Assembly: GCA_028293565.1 (NCBI GenBank)
Contig: JAQGON010000033.1
Span: forward strand, 1-33,900
Length of the DNA: 33,900 bases
Origin: Verrucomicrobiota bacterium
GTDB taxonomy: Bacteria; Verrucomicrobiota; Verrucomicrobiia; Opitutales; Opitutaceae
Direction: 5' to 3'
Below are positions 12,357 to 15,256 of the stretch, piece after piece. A program made the position numbers and the translations under genes. Within the stretch, counting starts at the first letter, position 1, and each line of letters starts with the position of its first letter. The notes below the pieces were generated by a model. It was not told where the DNA came from. It made no database searches and worked only from the letters and a program-made list of their open reading frames with translations.

Positions 12357-12390
12357 AAAACGGCACCGGCCTCCTCCCGATGCCAGGGGA

Positions 12391-12864
12391 TCAAACCTCG
12401 GAAGAGGTTTTCTTCGCCAGCAGCGCGTCGAGCGAAAGCCTGCCGGGGCCGAAGACGAACACGATCACCGCAGCCAGGAGAAAAAGAAACGGCGCGGCCG
12501 TCACGAACTTGTCCGGATCCGACGCGAGGGCGTGGACCGCCTCCGTTTCCGACGTCGCATAGGCGACGGCCATCATGAAAATCAGCGGGAGCGGCACAAT
12601 CCGTCCGCCGAGCCCTGCCAGCAGCAGGAGGCCGCCGATGCATTCCACCGAGCCCGCCACGATGGCGTTCAGCTTCGGCGCCGGAAGATGCAGGCTTTCG
12701 AAATAGCCCGCCGTGCGGTCGAGGTTCATCAGCTTGCCCTTGCCGGTCTGGAAAAATCCCCATCCCCAATAAAGCCGGACCAGCAGGAGAAATGGCGAAC
12801 GCAGCCAGCCCGCCACGAAGGCGAGCACGGCGTTGAGCTTATGGTACAGGGAGGCGGGGTTCAT
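12391..12864 (-). CDS. bufD: DoxX-family membrane protein, fourth gene of the bufferin cluster (BufD-like)
   Basis: 157 residues from ATG 12864. The open frame continues upstream, but that part is the shadow of bufC. The sequence has the DoxX pattern: LYWGWGFFQTGKGKLMNL, then KLNAIVAGSVECIGGLLLLAGLGGRIVPLPLIFMM..., with about four membrane helices. DoxX proteins are the regular last gene of bufferin and gig operons in Proteobacteria. Their role there is unclear, possibly electron transfer to or from the quinone pool or membrane handling of the metallophore. It begins 25 bases after the stop of bufC, so it belongs to the same transcript. Confidence 0.88.
   Translation of the reverse strand: MNPASLYHKLNAVLAFVAGWLRSPFLLLVRLYWGWGFFQTGKGKLMNLDRTAGYFESLHLPAPKLNAIVAGSVECIGGLLLLAGLGGRIVPLPLIFMMAVAYATSETEAVHALASDPDKFVTAAPFLFLLAAVIVFVFGPGRLSLDALLAKKTSSEV
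12393..12410. terminator. Possible hairpin terminator at the 3' end of bufD
   Basis: AAACCTC (12393-12399), loop GGAA, GAGGTTT (12404-12410) is a perfect 7-bp stem that includes the end of the minus-strand DoxX gene and lies 36 bases after the plus-strand GYF gene. It could stop transcription from the left; flanking T-tracts are short, so support is modest. Confidence 0.35.
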
Positions 12865-12889
12865 GGGGATAAGAGGGACAGGTGGGAAA

Positions 12890-13813
12890 TTATTTCCGGC
12901 GGCAGAGCCAGCCGAGTTCGGTCCAGAGCGCGAACCAGTCGCGCACCTGCCCGGTCGTGACTCCCGCGCCGCCCCTCGCGAGCGCACGGCTCAGGCGCGC
13001 GCCCGCGCGCAGCGCTTCCAGGATGCGGAAGGCGGACGACTCGAGGCGCTTGTAATAAAGCTGGTTCTCCACGCGGTGCACCGCGATCCACGTCTTCGAA
13101 CGCCGCGGCAGGCGGATCCGGCGCACGGCGGCCCGGCGCCGCGCCGCAGTGGTCGCGTTGCTCGCCTCGGCGCGAAGCGTGTCGCGCTTTTTCACCGCGA
13201 TCACATAGGCGTCCACCGGATGGTTCAATGCGAGCAGCTGCACGTAAGGCTGCACCGCGAGGCGAAGGCGGGAGGGCGGACTCGCGCCGAGATCCGCCGC
13301 GGTGACCGGCGCGAACGCCTCCTCGTCGAACGCGACGGTCTGCGCCCATTCGAAGCGCGCGATGTCGATGGCCAGCGCCGTGCGCGGGGCGGTCCAGGCA
13401 GGCTCGGCGCGCAGGAAGGCCTCGAGGCCCGAGCACAGGTTGCGCAGCGTGAACGAGCGCGACGGACGCTTCGCCAGATAGGCGAGGGCCAGGCGGTCGA
13501 ACTTCCGCGCGCCGAGCATCGCGCGCAGGCCCGGATTGTCGTCGTGGAAGCAGTCGACCAGCCGGAACCAATACATCCGGTTGTAAATTTCGAGCCGGTC
13601 AAACGCAGTCAGCCGGTCGTTGGGCTTGATGATTTCCGCGGCGACCTCGGCCATCGGCCGGCCATCGGTCCATTTCCGCTGCATCCGGTCACCCGCCGCG
13701 AGCGGGCGCAGCAGGGAGGCGTGCATCAGCCGCTGGATTTCACGCAGGCCGCGGATGCGGCGCGGCCTGCTCGCAACCGCGCTTGGGTCTGGCGGAGAGG
13801 GTTCCATGAACAT
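12890..13813 (-). CDS. bufC: DUF2063 protein, partner of the MNIO enzyme (BufC-like)
   Basis: 307 residues from ATG 13813; ATG 13807 is equally possible, and codons further upstream overlap bufB. The N-terminal half carries the DUF2063 pattern: LREIQRLMHASLLRPL (about 24-39), then RLEIYNRMYWFRLVDCFHDDNPGLRAMLG, and PSRSFTLRNLCSGLEAFL. The second half (LRLAVQPYVQLLALNHPVDAY and onward) is the region that binds precursor in characterised homologues. In MNIO systems this protein presents the leader of the precursor to the DUF692 enzyme. The start lies 23 bases after the bufB stop, and bufD follows at 25 bases. No membrane segment, so cytoplasmic. Confidence 0.87.
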   Translation of the reverse strand: MFMEPSPPDPSAVASRPRRIRGLREIQRLMHASLLRPLAAGDRMQRKWTDGRPMAEVAAEIIKPNDRLTAFDRLEIYNRMYWFRLVDCFHDDNPGLRAMLGARKFDRLALAYLAKRPSRSFTLRNLCSGLEAFLRAEPAWTAPRTALAIDIARFEWAQTVAFDEEAFAPVTAADLGASPPSRLRLAVQPYVQLLALNHPVDAYVIAVKKRDTLRAEASNATTAARRRAAVRRIRLPRRSKTWIAVHRVENQLYYKRLESSAFRILEALRAGARLSRALARGGAGVTTGQVRDWFALWTELGWLCRRK

Positions 13814-13836
13814 CGACGGCCCGGGGCTTCCCGCCT

Positions 13837-14706
13837 TCAGCCAACGCGGGCCGCTTCCGCCGGCGCCGCGCCCCGCGCGCCGCCGATGAATTCGTTGGCC
13901 TTCAGCGCCTCGTCGTGCACTTCGGCGAAGGACGGAATCCGGTCGTCCCACTCAAGCAGCGTCGCCGTCACCCCGCAGAGCCGGGTGGCGTGCGCGTAGA
14001 GTTTCCAGACCGGGTCGAGCACCGGATGATCGTGCGTGTCGAGGAGGTATTTCTCGAATTTCGTGTGCCCCGCGATGTGCATCTGGCCCACGCGATGGTG
14101 GGGCACGCCGTTCAGATAATCGTACGGGTTGAAACCGTGGTTCTTCGACGAGACGTAGATGTTGTTCACGTCGAGGAGAATTCCGCAGTCGGCGAGTTCG
14201 ACGACTTCACCCAGGAACTCCCACTCGGTCATCTCCGACGCGTGGAACTCCGCGTAGCTGCTGACATTCTCGACGCAGATCGGCACCTCGAGAAAATCCC
14301 GCACCATCCGGATCTTGGCCGCCGTCCGTTTCGCCGCCTCGAACGTGTACGGCATCGGCAGGAGGTCGTGCGTGTAGGTGCCGTCGACGCTGCCCCAGCA
14401 GAGATGATCCGAGAGCCAGGGAGTGTTCGTGCGCCTGACGAGCGCCTTGAGCCGGCGGAGGTGTTCGCGGTCGGGTTTTTCGGCGGACCCGAAGTACATC
14501 GAAACGCCGTGCTGCACCACGCGGTACTGCTCCAGGATCAGGTCGAGGACCTCGAGCGGGCGGCCGCCCCCGCACATGAAATTCTCCGAGATGATCTCGA
14601 ACCAGTCGACCACCGGTTTCTTTGCGAGGATGTGCGAATAATGCGGGACCCGCAGGCCGAGGCCGATGCCGTAGTCGGTGTGGCCGTTGAACGGATTGGC
14701 GGGCAT
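13837..14706 (-). CDS. bufB: MNIO (DUF692) multinuclear non-haem iron oxidase, bufferin-modifying (BufB-like)
   Basis: 289 residues, the usual size. MNIO enzymes are TIM barrels that hold two or three iron atoms and oxidise cysteines of RiPP precursors. Candidate metal ligands and conserved blocks are all present: DWFEIISENFM (34-44), HGVSMYFGS (66-74), SDHLCW (99-104), VENVSSY (145-151), LLDVNNIYVSSKNHG (177-191), QMHIAGH (208-214), DTHDHPV (223-229) and LLEWD (250-254). In bufferins the homologous enzyme turns cysteines into 5-thiooxazole rings that bind copper. The gene lies between the precursor gene upstream and its DUF2063 partner downstream. An intrinsic terminator (14748-14783) separates it from the precursor. 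Confidence 0.95.
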   Translation of the reverse strand: MPANPFNGHTDYGIGLGLRVPHYSHILAKKPVVDWFEIISENFMCGGGRPLEVLDLILEQYRVVQHGVSMYFGSAEKPDREHLRRLKALVRRTNTPWLSDHLCWGSVDGTYTHDLLPMPYTFEAAKRTAAKIRMVRDFLEVPICVENVSSYAEFHASEMTEWEFLGEVVELADCGILLDVNNIYVSSKNHGFNPYDYLNGVPHHRVGQMHIAGHTKFEKYLLDTHDHPVLDPVWKLYAHATRLCGVTATLLEWDDRIPSFAEVHDEALKANEFIGGARGAAPAEAARVG

Positions 14707-14747
14707 GAACGAAGGACGGAGCGGGCGAACCGGATTGCGGACGGACG

Positions 14748-14783
14748 AAAAAAAACGCGGCCGACGACGAGCGCCGGCCGCGT
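14748..14783 (-). terminator. Strong intrinsic terminator between bufA and bufB
   Basis: On the minus strand, a 9-bp perfect GC-rich stem (ACGCGGCCG at 14755-14763 pairing with CGGCCGCGT at 14775-14783) is followed by eight consecutive T residues (A-run 14748-14755 on the given strand). It starts 13 bases after the bufA stop and ends 41 bases before the bufB start. This is the best intrinsic terminator in the window. Inside an operon it would act as a partial terminator that leaves more precursor mRNA than enzyme mRNA. Confidence 0.88.
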
Positions 14784-14796
14784 CGAGGAGAGTCGA

Positions 14797-15096
14797 TTAC
14801 TTCTTGGGCGTTTCGGCGGAGGCGCAGCCGCCCTTGCCCTTGCAGGAGTTCTTGCCCTTGCAGCCATTGTCGCCGGCAGAGCAGCCGCCCTTGCCCTTGC
14901 AGTCGTTGTGGCCCTTGCAGGAGGCGGATCCCTTGCAGCCGTCCTTGCCCTTGCAGGAGCTCTTGTCCTTGGAGGCATCCTTGGTCGCCGGGGTGCCGGC
15001 AGCCGCGTCGCCCGCGTGGGCGCGAACCGCGAGCGAACCGGCGTAGAGGCCGGCCATGGCGGCGGCGGTGATGATGAGACGTGTCGATTTATTCAT
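14797..15096 (-). CDS. bufA2: Bufferin-type (BufA2-like) exported cysteine-rich RiPP precursor
   Basis: 99 residues. Residues 1-28 form a Sec signal peptide (MNKSTRLIITAAAMAGLYAG..., cleavage after AHA). A short Ala/Asp/Lys spacer leads to a core with eight cysteines at 48, 54, 60, 66, 72, 79, 85 and 91: five residues between neighbours throughout, except six between 72 and 79. Most cysteines are followed by KG; the CKGKGGC unit occurs twice (66-72, 85-91) and CKGKNSC once. This matches the BufA2 pattern of periplasmic copper-binding bufferins, whose cysteines are modified by the MNIO enzyme. The peptide would be modified in the cytoplasm, exported and buffer copper in the periplasm. Cluster order (-): bufA2, terminator, bufB, bufC, bufD. 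No other cysteine occurs in the protein. Confidence 0.92.
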   Translation of the reverse strand: MNKSTRLIITAAAMAGLYAGSLAVRAHAGDAAAGTPATKDASKDKSSCKGKDGCKGSASCKGHNDCKGKGGCSAGDNGCKGKNSCKGKGGCASAETPKK

Positions 15097-15256
15097 GCGA
15101 TACTGGTTTTGGGGTTTATTGACCGCCTTGCGCAGCTACCAAGCCGAACCAAGCGATGCAAAAATGGGAGGAACGACCACCGGGATTATTCCCGGGATTT
15201 GAAATCGGTGCAACTCGAATGTCGGCATGACGCCCCACCCGGGGCCCGCGACAGGC
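15097..15256 (-). promoter_or_regulatory. Upstream region of the bufferin cluster with a small palindrome
   Basis: 160 non-coding bases between the dehydrogenase stop and the bufA start should hold the promoter. The only clear structure is an inverted repeat CCGGGA-TTAT-TCCCGG (15180-15195), about 85 bases before the start codon. It could be an operator or an mRNA hairpin. I could not define -35/-10 boxes, and no Shine-Dalgarno sequence precedes the ATG. Confidence 0.35.

Follow-up and report, generated by a model that had tools for sequence, protein, structure and literature searches.

The closest described relatives of the locus treated here are the bufferins 2 (Buf2), the Cys-Lys class of captophorins and the SigF regulon of Caulobacter. 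Published Buf2 precursors carry six cysteines in 90% of the cases and 12 in the remainder; beside them, small precursors that fall into no class and have 1 to 18 cysteines number in the hundreds (PMC12452194; this paper and the others cited below are drawn on in excerpt). Six-cysteine DUF692 clusters are described from Gammaproteobacteria (PMC8692599). For the Cys-Lys captophorins, a substrate-selecting Asp site next to the catalytic Asp of the multinuclear non-heme iron-dependent oxidative enzyme (MNIO) has been described (PMC13097082). In Caulobacter, MsrP and two MNIO operons, CC3254-3257 and CC2907-2905, are under the control of the extracytoplasmic function (ECF) sigma factor SigF via GTAACC-N16-CGAA, and two conserved cysteines matter in its anti-sigma partner NrsF (PMC3511200); copper induces the regulon in either medium tested, and loss of SigF function by mutation makes cells sensitive to copper (PMC8224329). 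Here, we analysed a stretch of 33,900 nucleotides from a member of the Opitutaceae (Verrucomicrobiota; contig JAQGON010000033.1 of assembly GCA_028293565.1), referred to as the window, which carries the core of a bufferin biosynthetic gene cluster, namely a cysteine-rich precursor, an MNIO, a DUF2063 protein and a DoxX protein, as one operon-like run of genes read from the sequence.

We consider it probable that this cluster is, in all its parts, a captophorin operon, encoding a cysteine-rich and copper-holding ribosomally synthesised and post-translationally modified peptide (RiPP), under an ECF promoter and with a leaky hairpin. The genes, their order, the family matches, the shared promoter and the conservation of the hairpin are established at the level of sequence, and from these we infer the chemistry, the metal, the signal, the sigma-factor reading of the promoter and the direction of regulation. 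According to this account, the DUF2063 protein would present the precursor to the MNIO, which would convert cysteines, most likely the six Cys-Lys ones, to 5-thiooxazoles in the cytoplasm. The modified peptide would then be exported via Sec, with DoxX helping in the membrane, and bind Cu(I) in the envelope, lowering free copper. Transcription would start from the ECF-type promoter by means of a sigma factor whose gene lies at another genomic site, together with that of a one-helix anti-sigma-like protein, whose invariant Cys pair is predicted to lie beyond the membrane helix; copper or an oxidant acting at this pair would release the sigma factor. The sigma gene has the same promoter in front of it, as do genes for methionine sulfoxide reductases and redoxins in relatives. 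The hairpin after the precursor gene would stop many transcripts, leaving more precursor than enzyme.

Precursor, maturase and partner

The precursor has a signal peptide at residues 1-28, as judged by eye, and a six-cysteine core (Table 1). The 6,6,7,6,6 spacing of the core, roughly a doubled CKGxxxCKGxGGC, recurs in 75 of 96 distinct precursors. These come from 124 MNIO loci, which yielded 101 precursors by rule and two added ones, 103 in total; the other 21 loci are 12 plasmid references and nine without a precursor (L009, L014, L023, L030, L048, L054, L061, L102 and L119), several of them at contig ends. Cys 48 and 54 precede the core in the same six-residue rhythm, an extension of the kind found in Opitutaceae-type relatives, a set assembled by hand from record titles and kinship. 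The window precursor contains six Cys-Lys motifs, at Cys 48, 54, 60, 66, 79 and 85, and has Ser next to core Cys 3, a place at which 63 of the 75 distinct precursors have Lys. Lys stands next to core Cys 1, 2, 4 and 5 in 64, 73, 67 and 72 of them, respectively, and next to Cys 6 in 10. A preliminary description of the locus, made from its sequence, had called the eight-cysteine precursor unusual; within the family, eight cysteines are ordinary. Among 41 distinct Opitutaceae-type precursors the count ranges from 4 to 11, with 18 having six and seven having eight (in four of the 41, one counted Cys falls in the signal region), and 30 distinct Acidobacteriota precursors have 3-6. In some Opitutaceae peptides the core rhythm is lost to plain CKGKDG-type repeats. 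No EGKCG repeats were found in the window precursor, and, set beside the Buf_6/12Cys type of Antoine et al., which is defined by 6 or 12 conserved Cys and a match to their profile, it has a six-cysteine core plus two additional cysteines.

The MNIO scores 335.1 bits against NF050167 (BufB), above the cutoff of 310, and stays under the cutoffs of the HvfB model (243.4 bits, cutoff 360) and the MbnB model (36.6 bits, cutoff 325). Against the BufA2 model NF050166, the precursor reaches 33.9 bits, under the curated cutoff of 60. The idea of a bufferin system put forward in the preliminary description is thus borne out by the family search for the enzyme and not for the precursor. The same model accepted both proteobacterial Buf2 precursors tested (92.5 and 80.9 bits) and none of eight from Verrucomicrobiota and Acidobacteriota, one of which did not match at all and the others of which scored between 19.5 and 47.3 bits; the low BufA2 score is a property of the group. 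The MNIO residues H66, H101, E146, N147, D179, N182, N189, H210, D223, H225, D254 and E266 do not vary across the 117 sequences aligned. Asp255 is kept in 97 of 103 relatives, and 3bww has Phe at this site. As a diagnostic mark of the Cys-Lys class Asp255 was rejected, since Asp also occurs in one of eight Buf1 references and in a Streptomyces MNIO; of the three named Buf2 references, two carry Gly there.

These results also bear on the idea that the MNIO installs a different modification on the Cys-Lys peptide, or that the metal is one other than copper. In its favour, the precursor subtype is not captured by the BufA2 model (none of the nine precursors passes), and a characterised member of this clade was not found in the portions of the literature examined; the retention of the catalytic residues and of the Asp proposed to select Cys-Lys speaks against it, and we regard it as unlikely.

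The DUF2063 partner fails the HvfC equivalog (27.5 bits, cutoff 142), and a sequence search of the PDB with it gave no match. The fold search did match: its AlphaFold2 model (predicted local distance difference test, pLDDT, 90.4) finds TglI (8hci, 8hi7) and NGO1945 (3dee) as best PDB hits, MbnC (7fc0 chain C) only at rank 18 with an E-value of 1.3, and the RiPP recognition element (RRE) of TbiB1 as a very weak direct match (E 1.0). With an MNIO, a DUF2063/RRE partner, multiple Cys-Lys motifs and the selecting Asp, the window shows sequence features by which Cys-Lys captophorins are recognised. Because the MNIO passes the BufB cutoff, the fold of the PME type 1 partner matches TglI and NGO1945, and the Cys-Lys pattern and Asp255 fit the class, we read the product as a captophorin, and the precursor is, as far as its sequence goes, best filed as a Cys-Lys captophorin that is bufferin-2-like. 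A methanobactin-like chalkophore, serving copper acquisition and induced when copper is scarce, would share the enzyme superfamily PF05114 and the export signal, but the MbnB score lies far under its cutoff, the partner fits PME type 1 above MbnC, and the nameable genes behind the shared promoter (see below) are oxidative-damage genes, import genes elsewhere in the window or the genome not having been searched for. We consider a chalkophore very improbable.

In comparison with bufferin 2, the captophorin-type cluster of the window shares the gene order, an MNIO at BufB level, the DUF2063 partner and DoxX, and, by eye, the 6,6,7,6 spacing of the first five core cysteines with the precursor of Pseudomonas putida pKF715B. 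It differs in the last cysteine, which follows after 13 residues in P. putida and after six in the window, in the sub-cutoff BufA2 score, in the doubled CKGxxxCKGxGGC unit, to which Opitutaceae-type peptides add hexapeptide repeats, and in that an ECF gene can adjoin the cluster, a neighbourhood not found by Antoine et al. for Buf2 in the part of their text used here (PMC12452194). The Cys-Lys captophorins have the MNIO, PME1 and multi-Cys-Lys precursor in common with our locus and likewise an Asp at the FonB-Phe250 site, whereas the published tree and experiments concern Pseudomonadota, a Verrucomicrobiota product not being found in the sections consulted (PMC13097082). The oxazolin/HvfABC and fontiphorin (Lys-Cys) systems are alike in their MNIO-PME1 chemistry and unlike in their repeats, EGKCG in place of CKG, and in the residue at the selecting site, Phe (3bww) in place of Asp.

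A quick maximum-likelihood tree of 101 MNIOs is in line with this assignment. For this tree, the MNIOs of 102 relatives were thinned to 82 (<90% mutual identity); the plasmid references are mostly bufferin 1, the Cys-Lys class is represented by three named Buf2 and the Lys-Cys class by the partial 3bww only. The 83 rows from Verrucomicrobiota, Acidobacteriota and Planctomycetota form one side of a branch (Shimodaira-Hasegawa-like approximate likelihood ratio test, SH-aLRT, 93) and adjoin the proteobacterial bufferin MNIOs, apart from the HvfB-type 3bww and TglH (SH-aLRT 83); a non-bufferin grouping, which would have spoken against the preliminary description, did not appear. The window MNIO lies within an Opitutaceae set of 35 (SH-aLRT 98), and, together with the nearest relatives, this confirms the Verrucomicrobiota background that had been supposed. 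Since long branches were flagged, the join has an SH-aLRT of 83 and 3bww is partial, the bufferin placement offers support, not proof; moreover, the tree does not cleanly resolve the Buf1 from the Buf2 enzymes of Proteobacteria. In the same tree, the MNIO of L102 (G186:C1:3480961-3484737), which scores above the BufB cutoff and is preceded not by a Cys-Lys peptide but by a protein of 237 residues that has a Tat-like signal and scattered cysteines, groups with the two MNIOs from viral contigs (L128 and L129, IMG/VR). The latter are bufferin-like, 41-43% identical to that of the window, and were the sole finds of the viral-contig scan.

The arrangement is widespread. A scan with one genome per species gave at least 580 pattern-matched stretches from named genomes, at least 565 of which encode an MNIO relative; the best 80 of these are 72-90% identical and come from Verrucomicrobiota or Acidobacteriota, except for one from Planctomycetota and one titled 'bacterium'. 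Among the 73 loci whose downstream sequence extends over at least 2.4 kb, DUF2063 is kept in 72, DoxX in 51 and the full set of four genes in 47. Given the numerous MNIO relatives and the retention of DUF2063, the arrangement goes beyond chance. A BufB match at an E-value of 1e-30 is present in 56 of 200 genomes of the window's family (55 above the cutoff), including 10 of the 11 same-genus genomes listed, and in 6 of 132 in an order sample. The preliminary description had placed the system outside the proteobacterial cases; outside Proteobacteria this type is common. One metagenome-assembled genome (MAG) contig titled Akkermansia muciniphila (L076) has a bufferin cluster that groups with those of other Verrucomicrobiota MAGs; the title is possibly a binning or naming error.

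Promoter, sigma pair and proposed regulon

A conserved GGGAAT...CTC block first became visible in the aligned upstream regions of close relatives, and the general pattern is GGGAATAA-N15/16-CTC. Within the window, GGAATA-N16-CTC has one match, with 0.10 expected, and a sigma-70 promoter scan of the region found none. The looser GGAAT-N17..19-CTC occurs in 36 of 42 distinct Opitutaceae-type bufA upstream regions (11 of 2100 shuffles) and in 6 of 24 from other Verrucomicrobiota and Planctomycetota (5 of 1200 shuffles). Searching the 4.16 Mb source genome for the exact GGGAATAAN{15,16}CTC gave two sites, one before bufA and the other before an ECF gene. In addition, GGAATA-N16-CTC stands 8 nt upstream of the ATG of the source genome's MsrA, differing from the exact pattern at the first and eighth letters. 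We then counted the motif in 76 genomes, i.e. 54 of the 56 BufB-positive ones (G186 and G308 left out) and 22 BufB-negative ones, and obtained 130 sites in the BufB-positive genomes against 20 in the reversed control. The shared promoter is well supported by these data.

The ECF gene of the source genome encodes 183 residues with Sigma70_r2 and r4_2 (contig C33; motif 11 nt upstream) and is followed by an anti-sigma-like gene that is cut by the contig end. Relatives of this pair lie beside bufferin genes in eight fetched loci, with ECF E-values from 1e-20 to 1e-92. The most complete order is seen in L035 (Limisphaerales), where motif, ECF gene, anti-sigma gene, a second motif, bufA, MNIO, DUF2063 and DoxX follow one another, and L080 is similar if its ECF gene starts later than the longest frame. 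L024 and L025 (the latter from Opitutaceae bacterium EW11, record QAYY01000015, apparently an isolate) have the motif before bufA only, and in L081 and L086 it precedes DoxX and bufA and not the ECF gene. We also inspected 21 motif sites, 20 fetched ones selected for spacer or place and the source genome's own. Fifteen run directly into an ECF relative (gap of 6-13 nt in 11 and of 40 nt in one, with the frame called from upstream in three); among the remaining six, three reach an ECF gene about 500 nt further on, one leads to a weak match and two to none.

The anti-sigma-like family has no Pfam match, and its NCBIfam anti-sigma match is weak (26.2 against a cutoff of 100). All 30 distinct sequences have one hydrophobic segment, starting near residue 84-110, beyond which Cys 168 and 182 are invariant (30 of 30) and His192 is kept in 29. 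The structural model is weak (pLDDT 66.7); its first PDB fold match is RseB (E 0.002) with MucB lower, every RseB or MucB E-value being >0.001. RseB is a periplasmic sensor of the sigma-E system; that the present protein may sense thiols or copper is a reasonable guess. The family occurs in 119 of 200 family genomes, in 50 of the 56 BufB-positive and 69 of the 144 BufB-negative ones; the co-occurrence has a Fisher p of 2e-8, which ignores phylogeny and is weak evidence. An ECF factor serving bufferin alone was rejected on account of these 69 genomes: with the anti-sigma family so widespread in BufB-negative genomes, the sigma factor is not dedicated to bufferin. A different ECF gene, with distant similarity to that of Verrucomicrobiota, lies right after DoxX in the motif-lacking Acidobacteriota clusters L037, L049, L053, L057, L059, L065 and L070, and genome G188 has two bufferin MNIOs on two contigs (L023/L183 and L103/L182) with an ECF/anti-sigma copy near each.

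From BufB-positive genomes, 40 further sites were picked as not yet explained, and 19 of them enter recognisable envelope stress genes: MsrA at ten (six being orthologues inside the window's genus), a TlpA-like redoxin at five (three in the genus), and a peroxiredoxin-like protein, MsrP, MsrB and a DsbD-like protein at one each. The set of 30 loci listed from the 76-genome count, which has four motif sites in common with the 21 inspected ones, comprises two MsrA, two DoxX (one inside a bufferin cluster), two peroxiredoxin-like and two bufA genes, seven ECF genes (three recognised by anti-sigma position, one from the other site set) and one weak ECF match. In two further loci of this set, L140 (G132) and L145 (G141), both BufB-negative, the motif stands before a gene resembling, by eye, a primary sigma factor. 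These motif-led families were confirmed on one representative each (Pfam; NCBIfam for MsrP and for the source genome's own MsrA), and the other members were assigned by eye. Ten of the 12 MsrA genes of relatives start 8 or 9 nt after the motif, one 14 nt and one 141 nt after it; gaps of 8 or 9 nt would mean very short leaders. For bufA the gap is 71 nt. No copper pump was found among the nameable motif-led genes, part of the sites having been identified.

This gene set is what one would expect if the cysteine-rich peptide, modified or not, were mainly a sacrificial scavenger of envelope oxidants such as hypochlorite, with copper secondary: MsrA, MsrB, MsrP, peroxiredoxin-like and DsbD-like genes are named and a copper pump is not. 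In the same direction points the Brucella ECF16 regulon, which joins Msr genes and a sacrificial Met-rich peptide under hypochlorite (PMC8315932). However, an MNIO/PME pair kept in 72 of 73 loci would be superfluous for a simple sacrificial thiol, characterised captophorins are generally copper-binding (PMC13097082), and the SigF regulon of Caulobacter, copper-induced as it is, is required for copper tolerance (PMC8224329). We hold scavenging to be an unlikely main role, if slightly more plausible than a different modification or metal. In our preferred reading, the captophorin would serve copper buffering inside an envelope regulon for methionine and thiol oxidation, parallel to that of Caulobacter SigF.

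Several observations weigh against this reading, besides the sub-cutoff BufA2 score of the precursor. Twenty-one of the 40 further sites lead to no gene counted as envelope stress, and 12 of the 30 loci lead to nothing recognisable. The exact motif has two sites in the source genome against three in the reversed control; as the control is just as frequent, the count is uninformative there and the positions carry the argument. The motif also exceeds the control in the 22 BufB-negative genomes (45 against 14), and GGAAT-N17..19-CTC was found in 0 of 29 Acidobacteriota upstream regions (6 of 1450 shuffles). The sigma pair of the source genome lies on a different contig from the bufferin genes, with the anti-sigma gene split between contigs. 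Six of the 56 BufB-positive genomes lack an anti-sigma match, and the anti-sigma family in the 69 BufB-negative genomes includes a case, G147, where it stands with the ECF gene and the motif. Finally, chemistry, metal-binding or induction data for this clade were not found in the open-licence literature.

The functional set is, as read from sequence, like that of Caulobacter SigF, with a different promoter and a different anti-sigma family. In both, an ECF factor paired with an anti-sigma or anti-sigma-like protein bearing a Cys pair is linked to MNIO operons and Msr genes. The promoter is GTAACC-N16-CGAA there and GGGAATAA-N15/16-CTC here, and NrsF has six transmembrane helices (DUF1109) in contrast to the one transmembrane segment, without a Pfam match, of the protein described here. 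The second of the two SigF-controlled MNIO operons may be the Caulobacter bufferin 2 operon, so that ECF control of a Buf2-type operon would not in itself be new. No description of the present regulon or precursor subtype was found in open-licence literature text, although the taxonomic figure of PMC12452194 may include these phyla. Going further, we tentatively suggest, at somewhat less than even confidence, that Verrucomicrobiota possess an envelope-damage regulon of their own, in which an ECF factor and a one-helix anti-sigma protein, an RseB-like Cys-pair sensor, would govern a repeat-expandable captophorin together with Msr and redoxins, with an origin separate from the proteobacterial SigF/NrsF and with the number of CKGxxx repeats setting the copper capacity.

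If the copper-buffering account is true, thiooxazole copper peptides would be a broad part of stress biology in Verrucomicrobiota and Acidobacteriota, both of which are common in soils and waters. It would also mean that the combination known from Caulobacter, with bufferin and the repair of methionine sulfoxide under one ECF factor, is found again in a second phylum with another promoter and anti-sigma protein. Such a recurrence would speak for copper damage and methionine/thiol oxidation being a single problem of the envelope. Where genomes come with few tools, the promoter offers a direct and cheap test of function, and peptides with anywhere from 4 to 11 cysteines form a natural series in which to ask how repeat number sets metal capacity.

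Intergenic hairpin and gene layout

A terminator-like hairpin lies in the gap between precursor and MNIO. Defined by a T run and a perfect stem of no fewer than 10 pairs, G-U included, such a hairpin occurs in 30 of the 38 distinct intergenic regions of Opitutaceae type, whereas 2 of 760 block shuffles contain one. For the other intergenic regions the figures are 8 of 49, with 0 of 980 in shuffles. The stem sequences vary between loci and the pairing is kept. This pattern suggests a leaky terminator that would yield more precursor than enzyme.

Table 1. Features of the captophorin-type cluster, with positions counted from the first base of the window
Feature	Position	Strand	Remarks
Precursor (bufA-like)	14797-15096	minus	99 residues; eight Cys, six with Lys next
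Six-Cys core of precursor	14824-14919	minus	Cys 60, 66, 72, 79, 85, 91; spacing 6,6,7,6,6
MNIO (DUF692) maturase, bufB-like	13837-14706	minus	289 residues; PF05114 345.6 bits (cutoff 25)
Asp254-Asp255 of MNIO	13942-13947	minus	Proposed catalytic base and substrate-selecting Asp of the Cys-Lys class
DUF2063 partner (PME type 1)	12890-13813 or 12890-13807	minus	Two in-frame ATG starts; PF09836 49.7 bits (cutoff 27.2)
DoxX-family membrane protein	12391-12864	minus	157 residues; PF07681 70.6 bits (cutoff 23.6)
Putative ECF-type promoter, GGGAATAA-N15-CTC	15168-15193	minus	71 nt from CTC end to precursor ATG
Terminator-like hairpin, precursor-MNIO gap	14754-14784	minus	13 bp stem and T run; candidate leaky attenuator
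Terminator-like hairpin after DoxX	12361-12385	minus	Possible operon end; weak alone

The coordinates and Pfam matches agree with the four-gene order, single strand and span given in the preliminary description, and so do the gaps of 23-25 bases it had reported downstream of bufB. MNIO and DUF2063 are separated by 23 bases with the ATG at 13813 (29 with that at 13807) and DUF2063 and DoxX by 25, while the gap between precursor and MNIO measures 90 bases. The region contains five terminator-like sites against 3.1 in shuffles, and the hairpin after DoxX is weak by itself. The DoxX protein scores 68.3 bits against the HvfX family NF050144, under the cutoff of 80. The source genome has one MNIO match only, and no BufA2-like site besides the cluster precursor was found in it at an E-value of 0.01. 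The three neighbouring genes scanned are unrelated; a CRS1/YhbY protein and a GYF_2 membrane protein are encoded on the plus strand and a 2-hydroxyacid dehydrogenase upstream. In 14 loci, the cluster has near it a gene for a protein some 600 residues long, which in the one scanned, L010 (L010:2950-4737), is Thioredox_DsbH; in the window it does not follow DoxX, whereas in several of these loci it comes directly after it.

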